From positions 1-64,000 of the forward strand of contig NZ_LLYW01000013.1 in NCBI RefSeq assembly GCF_001484195.1: a stretch of 64,000 nt of DNA, given 5' to 3'. Positions 15,746 through 43,507 of the stretch are shown here, piece after piece; the stretch's first letter is position 1, and every line of letters starts with the position of its first letter. Below the pieces are notes generated by a model. That model was not told the origin of the DNA, ran no database searches, and saw only the letters and a list, made by a program, of their open reading frames with translations. The position numbers and the translations under genes are program-made. This DNA is from Thermococcus celericrescens. Its GTDB lineage: Archaea > Methanobacteriota_B > Thermococci > Thermococcales > Thermococcaceae.

Positions 15746-16786
15746 TTGAACGTTAGGATCTCCACGGTTGCAACGTATAATAGGAGCCGTTACATAGAAG
15801 ACGCCATTTTACAGCGGCTTTCGACCAAAAGCGTGGCTTTTAGAAGGGAAGGACGGTTGTGGAGCCGGGAGCGGGATTTGAACCCGCGACCTGCGGATTA
15901 CGAGGGCGTCATCGCACTTAAAACGCTAAACGAAGTGTGGAGCCACGAGAAAAAGGCTTTTCTAAAGTGGCTTTCCCGTAAAATCGAGAGAGAACGGACA
16001 GTGAAGGACTACTACAACGCGCTTGAGACAATGTTCAATAACTATCAAATAACCTTGAACAAGAAGAGTATCAAAAGAACAATTGACACTCTCGGAAATA
16101 AGAAGAGGTACGTCTACGGTCTCAGGAACTTTCTCAAATATCTTGCAGAGAAGGAAATCCTCGACGAAGAGTTTTCCAAGATGCTCCAAGAGGCCGCAAA
16201 AGCAAAGCGGAGTGGTGTGAGAGAGGTTCACCTCAATGACTATGAAGTGTCTGAGGCCTGGAAGCGCATTCAGGACCGCCGCGAGGAGGCTAGGCTCCTC
16301 TTCAAGGCGATGGTTTTCTCGGGAGTCCGACTCGCTCAGCTCATCAGGATGTTCGAGAGCTATGACCCGGCGAGGCTCCAGTTTCCTCTTGAAGGTATTG
16401 CCAGGTATCCGATCAAAGACATCTCCGAGGGCAAGAAGAGGGGATTTTGGGCGTACTTCCCGGCTGACTTTGTGCCAGAGTTGAAGAAATTCTCGGCAAA
16501 GGAGACGACCGCTTGGAAGTGGGTTCGCTATGGCCGCGTTTCGGCGAATAGCATCAGGAAATGGCACTACAACTTCCTGATCCGCAGAGGTGTTCCGGCC
16601 GACATCGCAGACTTCATCCAGGGCCGCGAGGCGGAGACAGTAGGCGCCAGGCACTACCTCAACAAAACGCTTCTCGCCGACGAGTGGTATTCTGCCGTGG
16701 TTGAGGATTTGAAGCTTGTTTTGGAAGGCGGCTGGCGCTCCAAACGCGCCAGGTTGGGAATTTCCCTCAGGGGTGATGATAAATGA
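15746..16786 (+). CDS. SSV-type tyrosine recombinase, C-terminal fragment (IntC)
   Basis: The frame is open through attL but has no native start; residues encoded after 15905 are element-derived (293 codons). Joined in the circular form to IntN through the att site in the same frame, the integrase would be 365 residues. The catalytic domain shows an Arg in SGVRLAQL (box I candidate), a Lys in the GKKRGFWAYF beta-hairpin, SIRKWHYNFL with GVPADIADFIQGR (box II-like, archaeal type) and RHYLNKTLL with the likely nucleophilic Tyr. The assignment of each catalytic residue is by analogy. Separation from IntN means integration destroys the gene and traps the element unless the enzyme is supplied in trans. 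Confidence 0.88.
   Translation: MNVRISTVATYNRSRYIEDAILQRLSTKSVAFRREGRLWSRERDLNPRPADYEGVIALKTLNEVWSHEKKAFLKWLSRKIERERTVKDYYNALETMFNNYQITLNKKSIKRTIDTLGNKKRYVYGLRNFLKYLAEKEILDEEFSKMLQEAAKAKRSGVREVHLNDYEVSEAWKRIQDRREEARLLFKAMVFSGVRLAQLIRMFESYDPARLQFPLEGIARYPIKDISEGKKRGFWAYFPADFVPELKKFSAKETTAWKWVRYGRVSANSIRKWHYNFLIRRGVPADIADFIQGREAETVGARHYLNKTLLADEWYSAVVEDLKLVLEGGWRSKRARLGISLRGDDK
15776..15904. repeat. attL: left copy of 129-bp direct repeat with tRNA-Thr 3' fragment
   Basis: Identical base for base to 43347-43475. Bases 15860-15904 are the 3' 45 bp of tRNA-Thr including the encoded CCA (complement strand). Bases 15776-15859 are identical to part of the intN coding sequence and extend the repeat 84 bp beyond the tRNA end. 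Identity stops sharply at 15776. Confidence 0.95.
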
Positions 16787-17934: not shown

Positions 17935-18284
17935 AGCCGAAGAGCCTCGCGCAGCTCATCATCTTCTTCGTGCTCGTCGGAGCGTGGTACTACATCGCCT
18001 GGCCGCTCATGACGAAGGAAGCCTTGGCGATTGGAGCGGTTGGCGGTGTCATCATGCATTGGGCGCTCACGAACAAGGGGAACAGGGCAATCGTCCTCAT
18101 CGAGCCGTTCACATCAGGCTGGCGCGTGCTACTCTACGACATGATGCTCTTGAGCTTCCTGGCGGCGCTCTGGCAGGCGAACGGCACGGCTCTTCTCGAC
18201 GCTCTGAAGAACAGCGTTCAGAACCTCGCGCTTCTCCTCGGGCTTGTGGGCGCAATCGGCGTTGACTACGGCGTGGAGGGATGA
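17931..18284 (+). CDS. Small integral membrane protein, 117 aa
   Basis: Three to four hydrophobic segments (LIIFFVLVGAWYYIAWPL, ALAIGAVGGVIMHWAL, LLYDMMLLSFLAALW, LALLLGLVGAIGVDYGV). It overlaps the coiled-coil gene by 4 bp. No family recognised; conserved-type membrane gene of the pT26-2-like block. Confidence 0.72.
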   Translation: MKPKSLAQLIIFFVLVGAWYYIAWPLMTKEALAIGAVGGVIMHWALTNKGNRAIVLIEPFTSGWRVLLYDMMLLSFLAALWQANGTALLDALKNSVQNLALLLGLVGAIGVDYGVEG

Positions 18285-18287
18285 AGA

Positions 18288-20123
18288 ATGAAGAAGACGG
18301 CGGTTTTGCTCGCTCTGTTGGTGCTCGGCTCGCTTTTGGCGGTAGGGACGGGGCAGGTTTCGGCTTTGACGGTAACTAAACATGAGTATGTTGGGCCGTT
18401 GTCATATGAGACTTTTCCTGTTGTTGTCTGGATCAATAGCACGCTTGCATCACAGTACGGGTTATCTAGTGCGGGATGGTATCTGTTTGGTGGGAGCAGG
18501 TATTCGTCTGATAGGGTTACGATAACAATTGACGGTCAGCAGCTAACTCTTTCGCCGCAGAATAATATCAACAGGGCGTACTGGTTTATCACTTCTAACA
18601 AGACGATAGGCGATGTTTACTTGGGAGATACAAAACTGACGAAGGTTGTTGCTGTTGCTGCTACTGAGACTAGTATCAGTGCTGGAGGTACAAAGTCTAT
18701 TTACACAACTGGATATTTGTGGGTGTACGGAGGTTCTGAGGTGTCTGTTGAGGGGATACCTGCATCTGACACGTCTGGCTTGAGGGTGCTTTATGTTGAG
18801 AGCGATGCGGGTAATATTGCAATTCATAATTCTGACAGTCAATATACTCACATTGTAGTATACCTTACTGGATACCCATTGACTGCTGTAACCTTTCACT
18901 TTAGCGACGGCCTCACCGGTCAGGCCCTTTCAGGGGTTACGGTGAAGGAAGGGGATTCCACGCTTGGCACTTTGAATGATGGAGACACACTGGAACTTCC
19001 AGTAAGCCAGCACACGCTAACTTTCGAGAAAAGCGGGTATTGGAGCACCACGGCGACGGTGGACGTTCAGAACGACACTTCTCTCTCCGTCGTTATGTAT
19101 CCCTCTTCAGCCGCCTTCAAGTTCGAGAACTTCCCCGAGAGCATCAACATTCTTGAAAACACGATTTACACGCTCACCTTCACACTCTCGCCGATCACGA
19201 CTGACGCGGCTTATAACACCTACCTGTCCATAAGCGGCCTCACCAGTCTCCTCGAAGTTCAGAAAGACGGCTCCACAATCAGCCCCGAGAGCGGCAAGTA
19301 CTACCTCGGCGACATTTCCTCGCCTGTTCAGGTCAGCATCAAGTTCAAGGCCGGCGCGGTCGGCCAGCACGGGTTCACTCTGAGCGTTGAGAGCCACGAC
19401 GCCATCATGTCAAAGACCTACACGACGACGAAGCAGGTCACTTATACCGTCGAGCCGCTCCCGTTTTCGGTTCAGATGCCGCAGGAATGGCAGGTCGGCC
19501 AGAATGAGCTGAGAATCAGCGAGAGCAGCGGCCAGAGCTACCTCATCACGGCAGTTCTGAAGGACAGCTCTGGAAATGAGGTCTGGAGTGACTCCCACGC
19601 CTTCAGCCCCTACGAAGCGTACTCCTTCAGCGTCAACGTGCCGAGCGAGGGCGCCTATACCCTGGAACTCCAGTGGAACGGCCAGACGGCCAGCTACGAC
19701 GTCACCGTGAACCCTGCCATCTCACTCACCACGAAGACCCTCACGGTCGAGAAGGGCGGCGAGGGCACGATTGTCCTCCACTTCAAGAACCCGAGCTCCA
19801 GCGTGCAGTACTACACGATCAAGGTGAGCGGCGGCTTCCTGCCGAGCGAGATCAACCAGAGCATTTCAGTTGCTCCACTAACGGAGAAAGACGTCAGCAT
19901 TGCCTTCGCCGTGCCGGAAGACCTGACCTACGACGCCTACGAGCTGAACGTCCAGGTTCTCCAGGGCAACGCGACGGTCTTCCAGGACAAGGTGGCCGTT
20001 AGCATCAGCGATTCTGGAGGATTCAGCCTGCTCGGCGGCGGCTCGAGCGGGAACACCTGGCTCTGGATCGGCGCCGGCGGGCTCGGGCTACTCACACTCA
20101 TAGCCCTCGCGAGGAGGAGGTGA
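18288..20123 (+). CDS. Large secreted, C-terminally anchored surface protein
   Basis: 611 residues. Signal peptide KKTAVLLALLVLGSLLAVG (2-20) with likely cleavage after QVSA; beta-rich ectodomain; a carboxypeptidase-regulatory/PEGA-like domain at about 205-270 (LSGVTVKEGDSTLGTL, then HTLTFEKSGYWST); further Ig-like repeats; and a C-terminal Gly/Ser linker, hydrophobic helix (WLWIGAGGLGLLTLIAL) and ARRR stop-transfer end. Bases about 18370-18900 use many GTT, GCT, TCT and TTT codons, whereas 18900-20120 is strongly G/C-ending. The exposed N-terminal half therefore looks replaced by recombination. Confidence 0.82.
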   Translation: MKKTAVLLALLVLGSLLAVGTGQVSALTVTKHEYVGPLSYETFPVVVWINSTLASQYGLSSAGWYLFGGSRYSSDRVTITIDGQQLTLSPQNNINRAYWFITSNKTIGDVYLGDTKLTKVVAVAATETSISAGGTKSIYTTGYLWVYGGSEVSVEGIPASDTSGLRVLYVESDAGNIAIHNSDSQYTHIVVYLTGYPLTAVTFHFSDGLTGQALSGVTVKEGDSTLGTLNDGDTLELPVSQHTLTFEKSGYWSTTATVDVQNDTSLSVVMYPSSAAFKFENFPESINILENTIYTLTFTLSPITTDAAYNTYLSISGLTSLLEVQKDGSTISPESGKYYLGDISSPVQVSIKFKAGAVGQHGFTLSVESHDAIMSKTYTTTKQVTYTVEPLPFSVQMPQEWQVGQNELRISESSGQSYLITAVLKDSSGNEVWSDSHAFSPYEAYSFSVNVPSEGAYTLELQWNGQTASYDVTVNPAISLTTKTLTVEKGGEGTIVLHFKNPSSSVQYYTIKVSGGFLPSEINQSISVAPLTEKDVSIAFAVPEDLTYDAYELNVQVLQGNATVFQDKVAVSISDSGGFSLLGGGSSGNTWLWIGAGGLGLLTLIALARRR

Positions 20124-34888: not shown

Positions 34889-35320
34889 ATGGCCGAACAG
34901 GATAATACTAAAATCATCGAACCACTAGCGAAATTTCACGCCCAACCCACCACCAAAGGCCGAATCACCATTCCCAAAGAAACCCGCCGAGTCTTCGGCA
35001 TCGAAGAAGGCGACTACCTCGAACTAATCGTCCGCAAACTCGACCAACAGACCAAGAAGCCAACGAAAAGGGCAGTAGTGATAATTAAACTAAATATCAC
35101 TGGCCAAGGAGTCATTCCAGCAGAACTCATTAGAAAAATGGATATAAAAATCAAAAAAGATGTCCTGGAAATTCTTTTAGTCCAGTTCTTTAAACCAGAA
35201 GAGGTTCTAAAAGGAAGGATTGTATTCGAGAAATATGTACAAGACCTCTTGAAAAAAGGATATGCCATCATCTCCGAAGAGGATGAAAGGAACACTATCC
35301 AGTTTGACTTCAAAGTGTGA
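34889..35320 (+). CDS. AbrB/SpoVT-type DNA-binding protein
   Basis: 143 residues. N-terminal leader DNTKIIEPLAKFHAQP is followed by the swapped-hairpin AbrB core TTKGRITIPKETRRVFGIEEGDYLE (positions about 21-45) and a second, longer domain (NITGQGVIPAELIRKM to the end) that resembles a degenerate second hairpin. It probably autoregulates and may control the nearby origin. ATG 34889 follows ACAGGAGGCCCAC. It is the only intact copy of three with this leader. Confidence 0.75.
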   Translation: MAEQDNTKIIEPLAKFHAQPTTKGRITIPKETRRVFGIEEGDYLELIVRKLDQQTKKPTKRAVVIIKLNITGQGVIPAELIRKMDIKIKKDVLEILLVQFFKPEEVLKGRIVFEKYVQDLLKKGYAIISEEDERNTIQFDFKV

Positions 35321-35371: not shown

Positions 35372-35705
35372 GGTCACATAATCCGCATGTGACCCAATGT
35401 GACCTCGTGTGACCTATGTGACCCTACCCTTATTTTCCTTTATTTCAAAAAAGAAAGAATCATAGAGGAGTTTAGGTCACATGATTTTTGTCCCTAAAAA
35501 CACCCTATATGTGTTTTTTCTTGGTTAGATTAACCTAATTTTGAACATATGTTCAATTTCAAAGCAAAAATCCTCAAAAAACAAAATAATAAGGGGGGGT
35601 GTTTTTCTGGCGTGTGACCTTGTGACCTTAAAGTGGGGTTTAAATCGCTTTTTTCGCCAAAAGAAGGAAAATAAGCCCTGGTCACAAGGGTCACATGGGG
35701 TCACA
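35372..35705. promoter_or_regulatory. Putative replication origin with TGTGACC iterons
   Basis: Eleven copies of TGTGACC or its complement GGTCACA occur in this 334-bp stretch. Direct copies start at 35388, 35398, 35408 and 35417 (10, 10 and 9 bp apart) and at 35613 and 35621; inverted copies start at 35372, 35475, 35680, 35689 and 35699. The clusters bracket an AT-rich core (about 35482-35610) holding the palindrome TTGAACATATGTTCAA (35541-35556) and a 10-bp inverted repeat AAAAACACCC/GGGTGTTTTT (35496-35505, 35597-35606). Spacing of one helical turn and position upstream of rep fit an iteron origin. Confidence 0.75.
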
Positions 35706-35811
35706 TACATCTTGGTGTAACCTTATGTGGCCCTTCCTTAATGAGTTCTCAATTTTGTATAATGTTAGTCAAGAATAACCACAAAAAGCTTTTATAGTTT
35801 GTACTAAAATT

Positions 35812-35824
35812 AAGTACTGTACTT
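35812..35824. promoter_or_regulatory. Operator-like palindrome before the RHH gene
   Basis: AAGTACTGTACTT is a near-perfect inverted repeat about a central T, 21 bp before the ATG of the small RHH gene; half-sites GTAC recur at 35801 and 35832. A TTTTATAG box at about 35790-35797 is the likely TATA element. Probably bound by the encoded RHH protein. Confidence 0.55.
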
Positions 35825-35845
35825 AGATAACGTACGGTGGTCGCA

Positions 35846-36022: not shown

Positions 36023-38119
36023 ATGGACCAGGAGGAAGTCAGAATCTACATCGAAACCTCACCGCTCCTCATGGCCTTCCAGGAACTGCTCAAGGAAGCC
36101 AGAACCTTAGAGGACGAGAACTACCTTCCAGCCGAGTTCAGGGGCTACCCGCTCGACTACATTGACTTCTACACCGTCATCTTCAAGCGCAGAGGAAGAT
36201 ACTATTGGATTCTCGACTATCACAGGCCCCGTGTGATCCTCCACAGAATCATTAGGAGAAAGGTCGTGGACGAGGAGGGCAAGCCTGTAAAGGACGAGGC
36301 CACGGGTGAGCCTGTTGTTGAGGAAGTTCCAATCCACGAGCAGACAATCCTTAACCTCGTGCCCATTGAGATACGGGCCTTCAGAGACTTCACTCTCGAA
36401 CTCGCCGCGAGGGAACTCGGAAGGAGCCCGCCAATCCTCTACCAGTGGACTGTCGCACTCAACAGCTGGAAGGGCCCGGTAATTCAGGAGCTTGAGCCTG
36501 TTTTGGCGGTGGAGCTCCTTGACAGGCTGAAGGAAATCGGTGGCCTGTTCTCCAGCGAGCCTCTAGCAAAGGAGGCTATTGACACGATTCTAACCCTCGC
36601 CCGCTACCTCAACGCCCTCCGTGTCGAAGACCGCCCAATGGCTCCTGGCATCTACTGGAACCCCAATACAGGCCAGCTTGAGGCGTATGACTTCGCCACG
36701 AGCATGCCCTCACCCGAGGAAGTCAAAGAGGCTCTCCTTTTGCTCGACGAGATATCAAGGACTGTGAACAAAACCTCGTGGCGCGAGAGCTGGCCCTACA
36801 AGTTCGGCAGGGCCATTAAATGGGCGCTCGTGGGTGGCCTTGGCTACGCATACAAGGTCTACAACGAGAAGCGGCGCTGGATTCCTTACTTATTATTAAT
36901 AGGAGAGTCTCAAACCGGCAAGACCCACAGCGTTGGAAGGGTCATCGCGGAGATGTGGTCCTCTCCGTTCACCTCCTCAGGTGCTTCATGGAGCCTCTAC
37001 ACTCTCAGTGAGCTGATTGCCTCAAGGGCGAGTGTCCTCATTCTGAACGAGGCGGCCAACCTCTTCCGCTCCCTCAACAGGGGCGACGAGGACGACAACC
37101 TGTTCAACTTGCTCAAGAACGCTCCGGAGCAGTACCTCTTCCGCTTCAAGAGCTACAAGGGCTCAATCAAAATCTACCCCTCGCTGGCCACGTTCGTTTT
37201 CACGGCCAATATGAGTGCTCCTCGGAACGAGGCCATTAGGAGGCGTTTTCTCACCGTCGAGTTCACGAAGGTGGACAAGATTCCGAAGGAGGCTCAGGGG
37301 AGGTTTGAGCGCGAGATTGTGCCAAAGATGGGCGTCCTCTCGGCAATCGGCAGGTTTGTTTTCAACCTCGTGAAGGCTGACCCTAAGCTCCTCGACAACC
37401 ACTGGATTGATCTGGCGGAGCTTCTTGTTAGGGCAGTGTACTCCTACGCAGGTCTGCCTGTTCCTCAGTGGCTCAGGGAGGCAAGCCTTGAGGAGAACTT
37501 CATCGAGGAGCTTGAGGCCGAGAAGGTTGAGTACGTGACGACGTGGCTTAGGAGGCACTTCAACGAGCTTTACCTCAAGAACGTCAAGAAGAGCTTCGAG
37601 GACAGGGCTGACTACATCCGCGAGCGCGTTGAGTACGTTCTCCGGGCGAATTACAGCGAGTATTTCTATCTCAGGGACGGCGAGGTTATCATCTTCAGGA
37701 GCCTCCTCGATGCTTTGAAGGCTGACAAGAAGGACCTCGACATCTACAGCTTCCAAGACCTTTCCAGACTCATGGATTGGACATACACTTTCAAGAAACT
37801 ACATGGACGTTCTTACCGCGTCGCCGTTGTTCCTCTCCAGGACTTCCTTGACCAGGTCGCGCCGATGGAGCGGGAGGAGTATGGGGCCGAGGTTTTCAGC
37901 GTTCTGGACGAGGTCGTGAACGTTCTGGCGATGCAACCGCTGTCCTTTGAGGAGCTGGCTGAGCAGACGAGGATTCCTGAGACTATCCTTAGGACGGCTC
38001 TGGACGTTCTAAAGACTAAGGGCGTGGTCTTCGAGGCGGGCGATAAGCTGGTTCTGGACCGGAAGAAGGCGGTTGCTGAGGGGTTTAACATCGTTTATTT
38101 GGGCGAATCGCGCGCATGA
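36023..38119 (+). CDS. Replication initiator/helicase Rep (AAA+/SF3-like)
   Basis: 698 residues. The N-terminal about 270 residues form a Rep-specific domain with no motif I can name. ATPase core follows: Walker A GESQTGKTHS at 294-303, Walker B-like VLILNEAANLF (N342-E343), sensor-1 FVFTANMS and an Arg-finger region RNEAIRRRFLTVEF. A winged-helix tail (LSFEELAEQTRIPETILRTA, about 640-685) ends it. The combination is that of plasmid/viral initiator helicases and of the pT26-2 Rep family (inference). The iteron region lies immediately upstream. Confidence 0.8.
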   Translation: MDQEEVRIYIETSPLLMAFQELLKEARTLEDENYLPAEFRGYPLDYIDFYTVIFKRRGRYYWILDYHRPRVILHRIIRRKVVDEEGKPVKDEATGEPVVEEVPIHEQTILNLVPIEIRAFRDFTLELAARELGRSPPILYQWTVALNSWKGPVIQELEPVLAVELLDRLKEIGGLFSSEPLAKEAIDTILTLARYLNALRVEDRPMAPGIYWNPNTGQLEAYDFATSMPSPEEVKEALLLLDEISRTVNKTSWRESWPYKFGRAIKWALVGGLGYAYKVYNEKRRWIPYLLLIGESQTGKTHSVGRVIAEMWSSPFTSSGASWSLYTLSELIASRASVLILNEAANLFRSLNRGDEDDNLFNLLKNAPEQYLFRFKSYKGSIKIYPSLATFVFTANMSAPRNEAIRRRFLTVEFTKVDKIPKEAQGRFEREIVPKMGVLSAIGRFVFNLVKADPKLLDNHWIDLAELLVRAVYSYAGLPVPQWLREASLEENFIEELEAEKVEYVTTWLRRHFNELYLKNVKKSFEDRADYIRERVEYVLRANYSEYFYLRDGEVIIFRSLLDALKADKKDLDIYSFQDLSRLMDWTYTFKKLHGRSYRVAVVPLQDFLDQVAPMEREEYGAEVFSVLDEVVNVLAMQPLSFEELAEQTRIPETILRTALDVLKTKGVVFEAGDKLVLDRKKAVAEGFNIVYLGESRA

Positions 38120-43155: not shown

Positions 43156-43206
43156 TTATCATGACCGCAATGGCTATATCCAGTCCGCAGGTATTACCTC
43201 AGTGTA

Positions 43207-43231
43207 GCCACATGTGGCCACGTGTGGCCAC
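43207..43231 (+). promoter_or_regulatory. Operator-like tandem repeats upstream of intN
   Basis: GCCACATGTGGC (43207-43218) overlaps two direct copies of TGTGGCCAC (43213-43221 and 43223-43231), each centred on the palindrome TGGCCA and spaced 10 bp. They are followed by ACAATATTG, a weak TATA, and the Shine-Dalgarno GGAGGAGGG. Probably a binding site for an element regulator or the RHH part of the integrase. Confidence 0.55.
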
Positions 43232-43259
43232 ACAATATTGGGCGGAGGAGGGCCTTGAA

Positions 43260-43496
43260 ATGGTCAAGAGGAAGCCGAAAAGAGCACGTATACCAATTCA
43301 CATCACACTTAGTCCGCAGGTCATCGAAATGCTCGATAAAGCCACTTATAATAGGAGCCGTTACATAGAAGACGCCATTTTACAGCGGCTTTCGACCAAA
43401 AGCGTGGCTTTTAGAAGGGAAGGACGGTTGTGGAGCCGGGAGCGGGATTTGAACCCGCGACCTGCGGATTACGAGTCCGCCGCCCTGCCGAGCTAG
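43260..43496 (+). CDS. Integrase N-terminal fragment (IntN) with RHH domain
   Basis: 78 residues in the integrated state. The first about 47 residues (RARIPIHITLSPQVIEML, then RSRYIEDAILQRL) have a ribbon-helix-helix pattern, unusual at the start of a tyrosine recombinase. The frame then passes through the att site (residues about 58-72, ERDLNPRPADYE) and stops in the tRNA gene. In the circle it continues in frame with IntC. ATG 43260 follows GGCGGAGGAGGGCC. An open frame reaching back to 43152 is not favoured because of the palindromes in it. Confidence 0.85.
   Translation: MVKRKPKRARIPIHITLSPQVIEMLDKATYNRSRYIEDAILQRLSTKSVAFRREGRLWSRERDLNPRPADYESAALPS
43347..43475. repeat. attR: right copy of 129-bp direct repeat
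   Basis: Identical to 15776-15904. Bases 43431-43475 are the 3' part of the intact tRNA-Thr; the other 84 bp are intN coding sequence. Confidence 0.95.
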
Positions 43497-43507
43497 GCTA
43501 CCCCGGC
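43431..43507 (-). tRNA. tRNA-Thr (anticodon CGT)
   Basis: Minus strand, 77 nt with encoded CCA. Acceptor GCCGGGG/TCCCGGC (one G-U), anticodon stem GCGGA/TCCGC with loop CTCGTAA (anticodon CGT, reads ACG), and T stem GCGGG/CCCGC with TTCAAAT. Discriminator U73 is as usual for archaeal tRNA-Thr. It is the integration target; the tRNA stays intact because the att repeat supplies its 3' end. Confidence 0.96.

Follow-up and report, generated by a model that had tools for sequence, protein, structure and literature searches.

Mirror-image repeat arms with a changing unit at a candidate Rep-read origin of the pT26-2-family plasmid TceDSM17994_IP1

The integrated element and its repeat array

The window, the whole 64,000-nucleotide stretch of Thermococcus celericrescens DNA that was analysed, contains a 27,571 bp integrated plasmid bounded by exact direct repeats, one of which overlaps a tRNA-Thr gene (Table 1). 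Its coordinates and contig (NZ_LLYW01000013) agree with those of TceDSM17994_IP1 of T. celericrescens DSM17994 in a survey of the pT26-2 family (Badel et al. 2019; PMC6972569), where the element is credited with a t26-22p-like Rep and a single predicted ori. From this listing, the att site at tRNA-Thr, and a Rep that shares 93% identity with t26-22p, the element is the pT26-2-family plasmid TceDSM17994_IP1. Close to the right att site (AGCCACATGTGGCCACGTGTGGCCACAC), TGTGGCCAC recurs at window positions 43205-43235, possibly as an integrase regulatory site.

Upstream of the genes for a ribbon-helix-helix-like (RHH) protein and Rep lies an array of the heptamer TGTGACC and its complement GGTCACA. 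The initial annotation had counted eleven sites at 35372-35705, spaced 8-10 bp within clusters around an AT-rich core, and all of this is borne out: exactly 11 perfect copies are present, the spacing is 8-10 bp, and the core is 69% AT versus 49% for the whole element. The window as a whole holds 16 copies versus 6.2 expected, 11 of them in this interval, and the top count for any 7-mer per 350 bp in 60 block shuffles of the window was 3-5. The array is far beyond chance, and it is single-copy in the genome. The helical phasing that had been proposed is approximate only, the 8-10 bp periods being shorter than 10.5. More striking is a regularity that had been missed, a fixed spacing of 57-59 bp between outer and inner units.

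Table 1. Coordinates of the element ends, genes, and array features in the window
Feature	Position	Strand	Remark
att repeat, left end of element	15776..15904	+	129-bp exact direct repeat
AbrB/MazE-fold regulator, t26-20p position	34889..35320	+	PF04014, E 8e-11; DNA-contact loop QPTTKGR
Outer-left array, outward-pointing unit GGTCACA	35372..35378	-	
Outer-left array, TGTGACC units	35388..35423	+	At 35388, 35398, 35408, 35417; period 10, 10, 9
Left spacer	35424..35474	.	51 bp; start-to-start 58 bp
Inner-left unit GGTCACA	35475..35481	-	Single here, two in some relatives
AT-rich core	35482..35612	.	69% AT; presumed unwinding region; includes ACACCCTATATGTGTTTTTTC
16-bp palindrome TTGAACATATGTTCAA	35541..35556	.	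Read from sequence
Inner-right pair of TGTGACC	35613..35627	+	At 35613 and 35621
Right spacer	35628..35679	.	52 bp; start-to-start 59 bp
Outer-right array, GGTCACA units	35680..35705	-	At 35680, 35689, 35699
Two degenerate outward units	35716..35732	+	TGTAACC (35716), TGTGGCC (35726); mirror the left outward unit
TATA-box-like TTTTATAGTT, RHH-rep promoter	35790..35799	+	TATA-like box at corresponding place in all relatives
Putative operator, tandem 17-bp palindromes GTACTAAAATTAAGTAC T GTACTTAGATAACGTAC	35801..35835	.	17+1+17 form, other letters in relatives
RHH-like protein, t26-21p homologue, 53 aa	35846..36007	+	No Pfam match; RHH call from residue pattern
Rep, t26-22p homologue, 698 aa	36023..38119	+	P-loop helicase and two predicted C-terminal winged helices
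Rep residues 577-601, hypervariable recognition helix and wing of winged helix 1	37751..37825	+	Candidate iteron-reading element
att repeat, right end of element	43347..43475	+	Overlaps tRNA-Thr 43431-43507

Layout and repeat unit among relatives

A search of 94 Thermococcaceae genomes and plasmid records yielded eight comparable loci: the window, pT26-2, pGE2, TKV3 of T. kodakarensis (genome G023), and loci in genomes G042, G066, and G090 (two, G090a and G090b). Both G090 contigs end inside RHH and Rep is missing from that assembly, so two of the eight loci lack Rep. The G090 breaks fall at an identical 55 bp (G090:C20:1-55 and C13:55261-55315), suggesting that identical downstream rep genes were collapsed in assembly.

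The expectation that one heptamer would recur upstream of rep in relatives did not hold; nearly every relative carries a different heptamer in the same layout. pT26-2 has zero copies of TGTGACC, and the one copy in pGE2 lies outside its array region. The unit is TGTGACC in the window, TGTTACC in G066 and G090a, TGTAACC in pGE2, TGTCATA in pT26-2, TGTCATG in G090b, and TGTGACG/A in TKV3 and G042. All fit TGTNAYN, usually preceded by A, with TGT invariant and only the 3′ letters varying. In all eight loci the array sits between the AbrB and RHH genes and reads in the same order: an outward unit, then, 16-18 bp further, 3-4 inward units with a 9-10 bp period, then, 57-59 bp start-to-start from the outer array, 1-2 opposing units, followed by the core and the mirror image of the whole. 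The outer-to-inner distance keeps to 57-59 bp in 16 of 16 arms (sd 0.7), and core length ranges over 78-151 bp. This layout stands next to rep in every Rep-bearing locus (6/6). A degenerate form of the array pattern, run against the 94 Thermococcaceae genomes, matched only these loci and three mixed-unit singles; a reversed control gave two matches.

The spacers of diverged pairs are identical only at or near the level of shuffled sequence, so shared ancestry of their letters does not account for the fixed length. The 58 bp amount to ∼5.5 helical turns and, to offer an idea only, also lie near the length of DNA wrapped by an archaeal histone tetramer. The core is ∼80% identical among the window, pT26-2, G042, and G066 (the core-A relatives) and diverged in the other loci. 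The 16-bp palindrome given in the initial annotation is indeed present in the window, but it is no general origin part: only pT26-2, G042, and G066 retain it, in imperfect form, whereas pGE2, TKV3, and the two G090 loci lack it. Because the core is retained while the window spacers share only ∼55% identity with those of pT26-2 and G042, and the left spacers of G042 and TKV3 match at 92% identity, the arms seem to have been swapped as modules on either side of a core that stayed in place. Viral contigs searched with Rep, a Rep alignment, the TKV3 Rep, RHH, and the core pattern gave no match, and phage records held no similar DNA and only distant Reps.

Candidate readers of the heptamers

Three neighbouring proteins vary among these loci (Rep, RHH, and AbrB), as do two DNA motifs (the iterons and the promoter palindromes), and Mantel-type distance tests did not single out the iteron-reading protein. 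AbrB undergoes whole-protein replacement between classes. The distance between AbrB loops follows that between iterons (r 0.53, p 0.004, eight loci), as would be expected if AbrB read the heptamers, but it correlates equally with the promoter operator (r 0.54). This putative operator consists of 17-bp palindromes 18 bp apart, directly following the RHH TATA box, and the same form with other letters occurs at the corresponding promoters of relatives, TKV1 included. The window and G066 share both the loop QPTTKGR and an operator half-site. TKV3 and G090b agree in both AbrB loop and operator yet carry different iterons, and AbrB is therefore assigned to the palindrome. The tandem palindrome appears to be an AbrB operator, and AbrB is very improbable as the heptamer reader.

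AbrB-type genes also occur in stacks. Three lie in tandem upstream of one origin in G042 (G042:C1:301477-302789, L084): one is near-identical to t26-20p of pT26-2 (loop QSKLRPQGK), one is of the window and G066 type (QPTTKGR), and the proximal one is of its own type. Only the G042 operator form is present in the region examined, which may reflect repressor-based immunity or leftover modules. Stacks of several such genes recur in Thermococcales elements, TKV2 (L091) and other AbrB loci among them, for example at G023:C1:336892-341914 and G063:C163.

The small RHH protein is a more serious rival to Rep. It could read the heptamers, coat both arms cooperatively, and recruit Rep, the variable winged helix of Rep then touching something else. 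The 9-10 bp tandem period would suit RHH filaments, and RHH varies as sharply as Rep, mainly in its DNA-contact strand: among the window, pT26-2, and G042, pN is 0.39-0.45 in codons 2-13 versus 0.01-0.05 in codons 14-53, and the two G090 loci differ likewise, both contigs ending in the identical 55 bp inside RHH directly after the swapped strand. Moreover, TGTNACC units accompany YKSI-type RHH strands, and other units accompany W-type strands. However, pT26-2 and TKV3 have identical RHH strands (pN 0, pS 0.87) and different iterons (TGTCATA versus TGTGACG/A), which argues against RHH as the sole iteron reader; conversely, TKV3 and G042 have common iterons and different strands. The invariance of TGT is also restricted to one side of the unit, and an invariant TGT with variable 3′ letters points to an asymmetric mode of reading more than to a symmetric RHH dimer. 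We consider RHH an unlikely reader of the heptamers.

Rep itself varies in a single narrow segment. In a scan of four Reps (∼86-94% identical), variation peaks at residues 577-601, with 29 per 25 columns where the mean is 5.1 (0 of 2000 permutations). There, pN is 0.23-0.31 versus 0.02-0.06 for residues 1-570, or ∼4-17 times higher. A model of full-length Rep had low quality (pLDDT 53), and the C-terminal domain alone was therefore used. The predicted model of residues 502-698 (pLDDT 86) contains two winged helices, in the first of which residues 577-601 make up helix 3 and the wing; structure matches to this model cover winged helix 2 and barely probe winged helix 1. Since the core is near-identical in the window, pT26-2, G042, and G066 despite their differing Rep segments, the target of the segment is unlikely to be the core, and iterons and operators are the DNA parts that vary. 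Residue 592 (K/R/T) is the sole Rep column matching the iteron classes ACC/ACG/ATA, a match that is only suggestive given that whole-segment distance does not follow iteron distance (r = -0.02, six loci). Rep shows no conflict with the iterons of the kind that RHH strands show, but with a nil overall correlation over six loci, Rep as reader is a preference and not a demonstration. The array is most likely an iteron-type origin read by Rep, with RHH as the serious rival.

Origin function and proposed mechanism

Archaeal plasmid origins are poorly defined. The location of this candidate is not new: pT26-2 belongs to the same family and has the same AbrB-ori-RHH-Rep order as the window element, and cumulative GC skew had already placed its ori in the homologous intergenic interval, between t26-20p and t26-21p (PMC6972569). 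That survey reports an ori for the window element but gives no consensus for it, and its comparison of oris revealed no conserved sequence or location (PMC6972569). Here the layout is conserved while the unit changes, which explains the absence of an ori consensus. The pGE2 cumulative GC-skew minimum (18128) falls inside its own array (18030-18350); those of pT26-2 and the window element lie ∼1.7 kb downstream of theirs. The proposal of a candidate origin for this plasmid family thus draws support from adjacency to rep, the pT26-2 ori prediction, and the pGE2 minimum, but the heptamer fails as a family marker. The evidence for origin function is positional, and marker-frequency data from T. 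kodakarensis, in which no initiation was seen at integrated TKV3 and spikes there were ascribed to recombination (PMC5663688), count against over-reading it.

The array otherwise resembles an iteron-type origin in having many short oriented repeats beside rep and an AT-rich segment, and in being tied to the same rep in relatives. The repeat sequence is not conserved beyond TGTNAYN, but a conserved heptamer is not required of iteron origins, iterons being replicon-specific. Classical bacterial iterons have longer periods than the 9-10 bp seen here, which counts against an iteron reading. A CRISPR-like array, transposon ends, and a terminator array were also considered; none matches the mirror arrangement next to rep. 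Repeat arrays are common targets of RHH proteins encoded beside them, and this array lies 140 bp upstream of RHH; it might instead be a partition centromere or regulatory array of the RHH protein. We find this improbable: a scan of eight neighbouring proteins recognised no ParA-like gene; TKV1 carries an RHH-AbrB pair with promoter palindromes but has no such array between the two genes; and an origin is favoured by the mirrored arrangement about an AT-rich core, the association with this type of Rep, and the GC-skew prediction in print.

We regard it as probable, on the sequence comparisons above, that the array is a Rep-read replication origin with mirror half-origins, core melting, and modular change of unit. 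Two mirror-image half-origins would flank the AT-rich core, each with 3-4 outer inward heptamers and 1-2 inner opposing ones 58 bp apart. Rep would bind the heptamers through its C-terminal winged helix; each half would nucleate one helicase assembly, the 58-bp spacer being bent or looped, and the paired assemblies would melt the core and start bidirectional replication. Plasmids would diversify when the heptamer changes on both sides at once, the parts of the initiators that read DNA changing to match. Rep synthesis would probably be under separate control, through AbrB bound to the tandem palindrome of the RHH-rep promoter. The fixed 58-bp spacing makes the assembly model testable, and the constant layout with a changing unit offers a rule for locating pT26-2-family origins and predicts which plasmids can coexist. 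The variable segments point to residues that may set initiator specificity, and the 93%-identical Reps allow a direct swap comparison.

More tentatively, we conjecture a rigid mirror scaffold with an exact 58-bp arm and interchangeable modules, namely the word, the initiator segment that reads it, the RHH strand, and the AbrB-operator pair, whose exchange would generate many compatible replicons. Accumulated AbrB genes might then repress incoming relatives, acting as plasmid immunity; G042 holds AbrB genes of two other replicon types besides its own.

Bacterial iteron plasmid origins, such as those of RK2, F, and pSC101, likewise have short repeated units by an AT-rich region next to rep, with a presumed winged-helix Rep as reader. 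Their iterons, however, are direct repeats of greater length that mostly lie to one side of the AT-rich region, whereas the array described here has 7-bp units in mirror-image arms with an invariable gap of 58 bp, and its Rep is a P-loop helicase. Archaeal chromosomal Orc1/Cdc6 origins resemble it in their inverted binding sites around an AT-rich unwinding region, but use another initiator and longer ORB sequences. The orf56/orf904 operon of Sulfolobus pRN1 similarly joins a small regulator to a helicase Rep with a C-terminal winged helix (PMC4234260); unlike the window, its origin is a stem-loop downstream of rep, stated without iteron structure, and unlike the pRN1 Rep, t26-22p has no recognised PrimPol domain. 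Phage P4 alpha, described in the same paper, is likewise a helicase with a C-terminal DNA-binding domain acting at origin repeats, but is bacterial, with a Toprim primase and another repeat arrangement.

Similar spacing occurs in other units elsewhere. TKV1 of G023 (L093 6615-6736) has eight TCCCCAA/TTGGGGA units ∼9-10 bp apart within the reading frame that follows RHH, and these may be iterons of another replicon type. In a small plasmid of G022 (L009 2860-2920), a distant Rep relative is followed downstream by TTGCATC units ∼9-10 bp apart.
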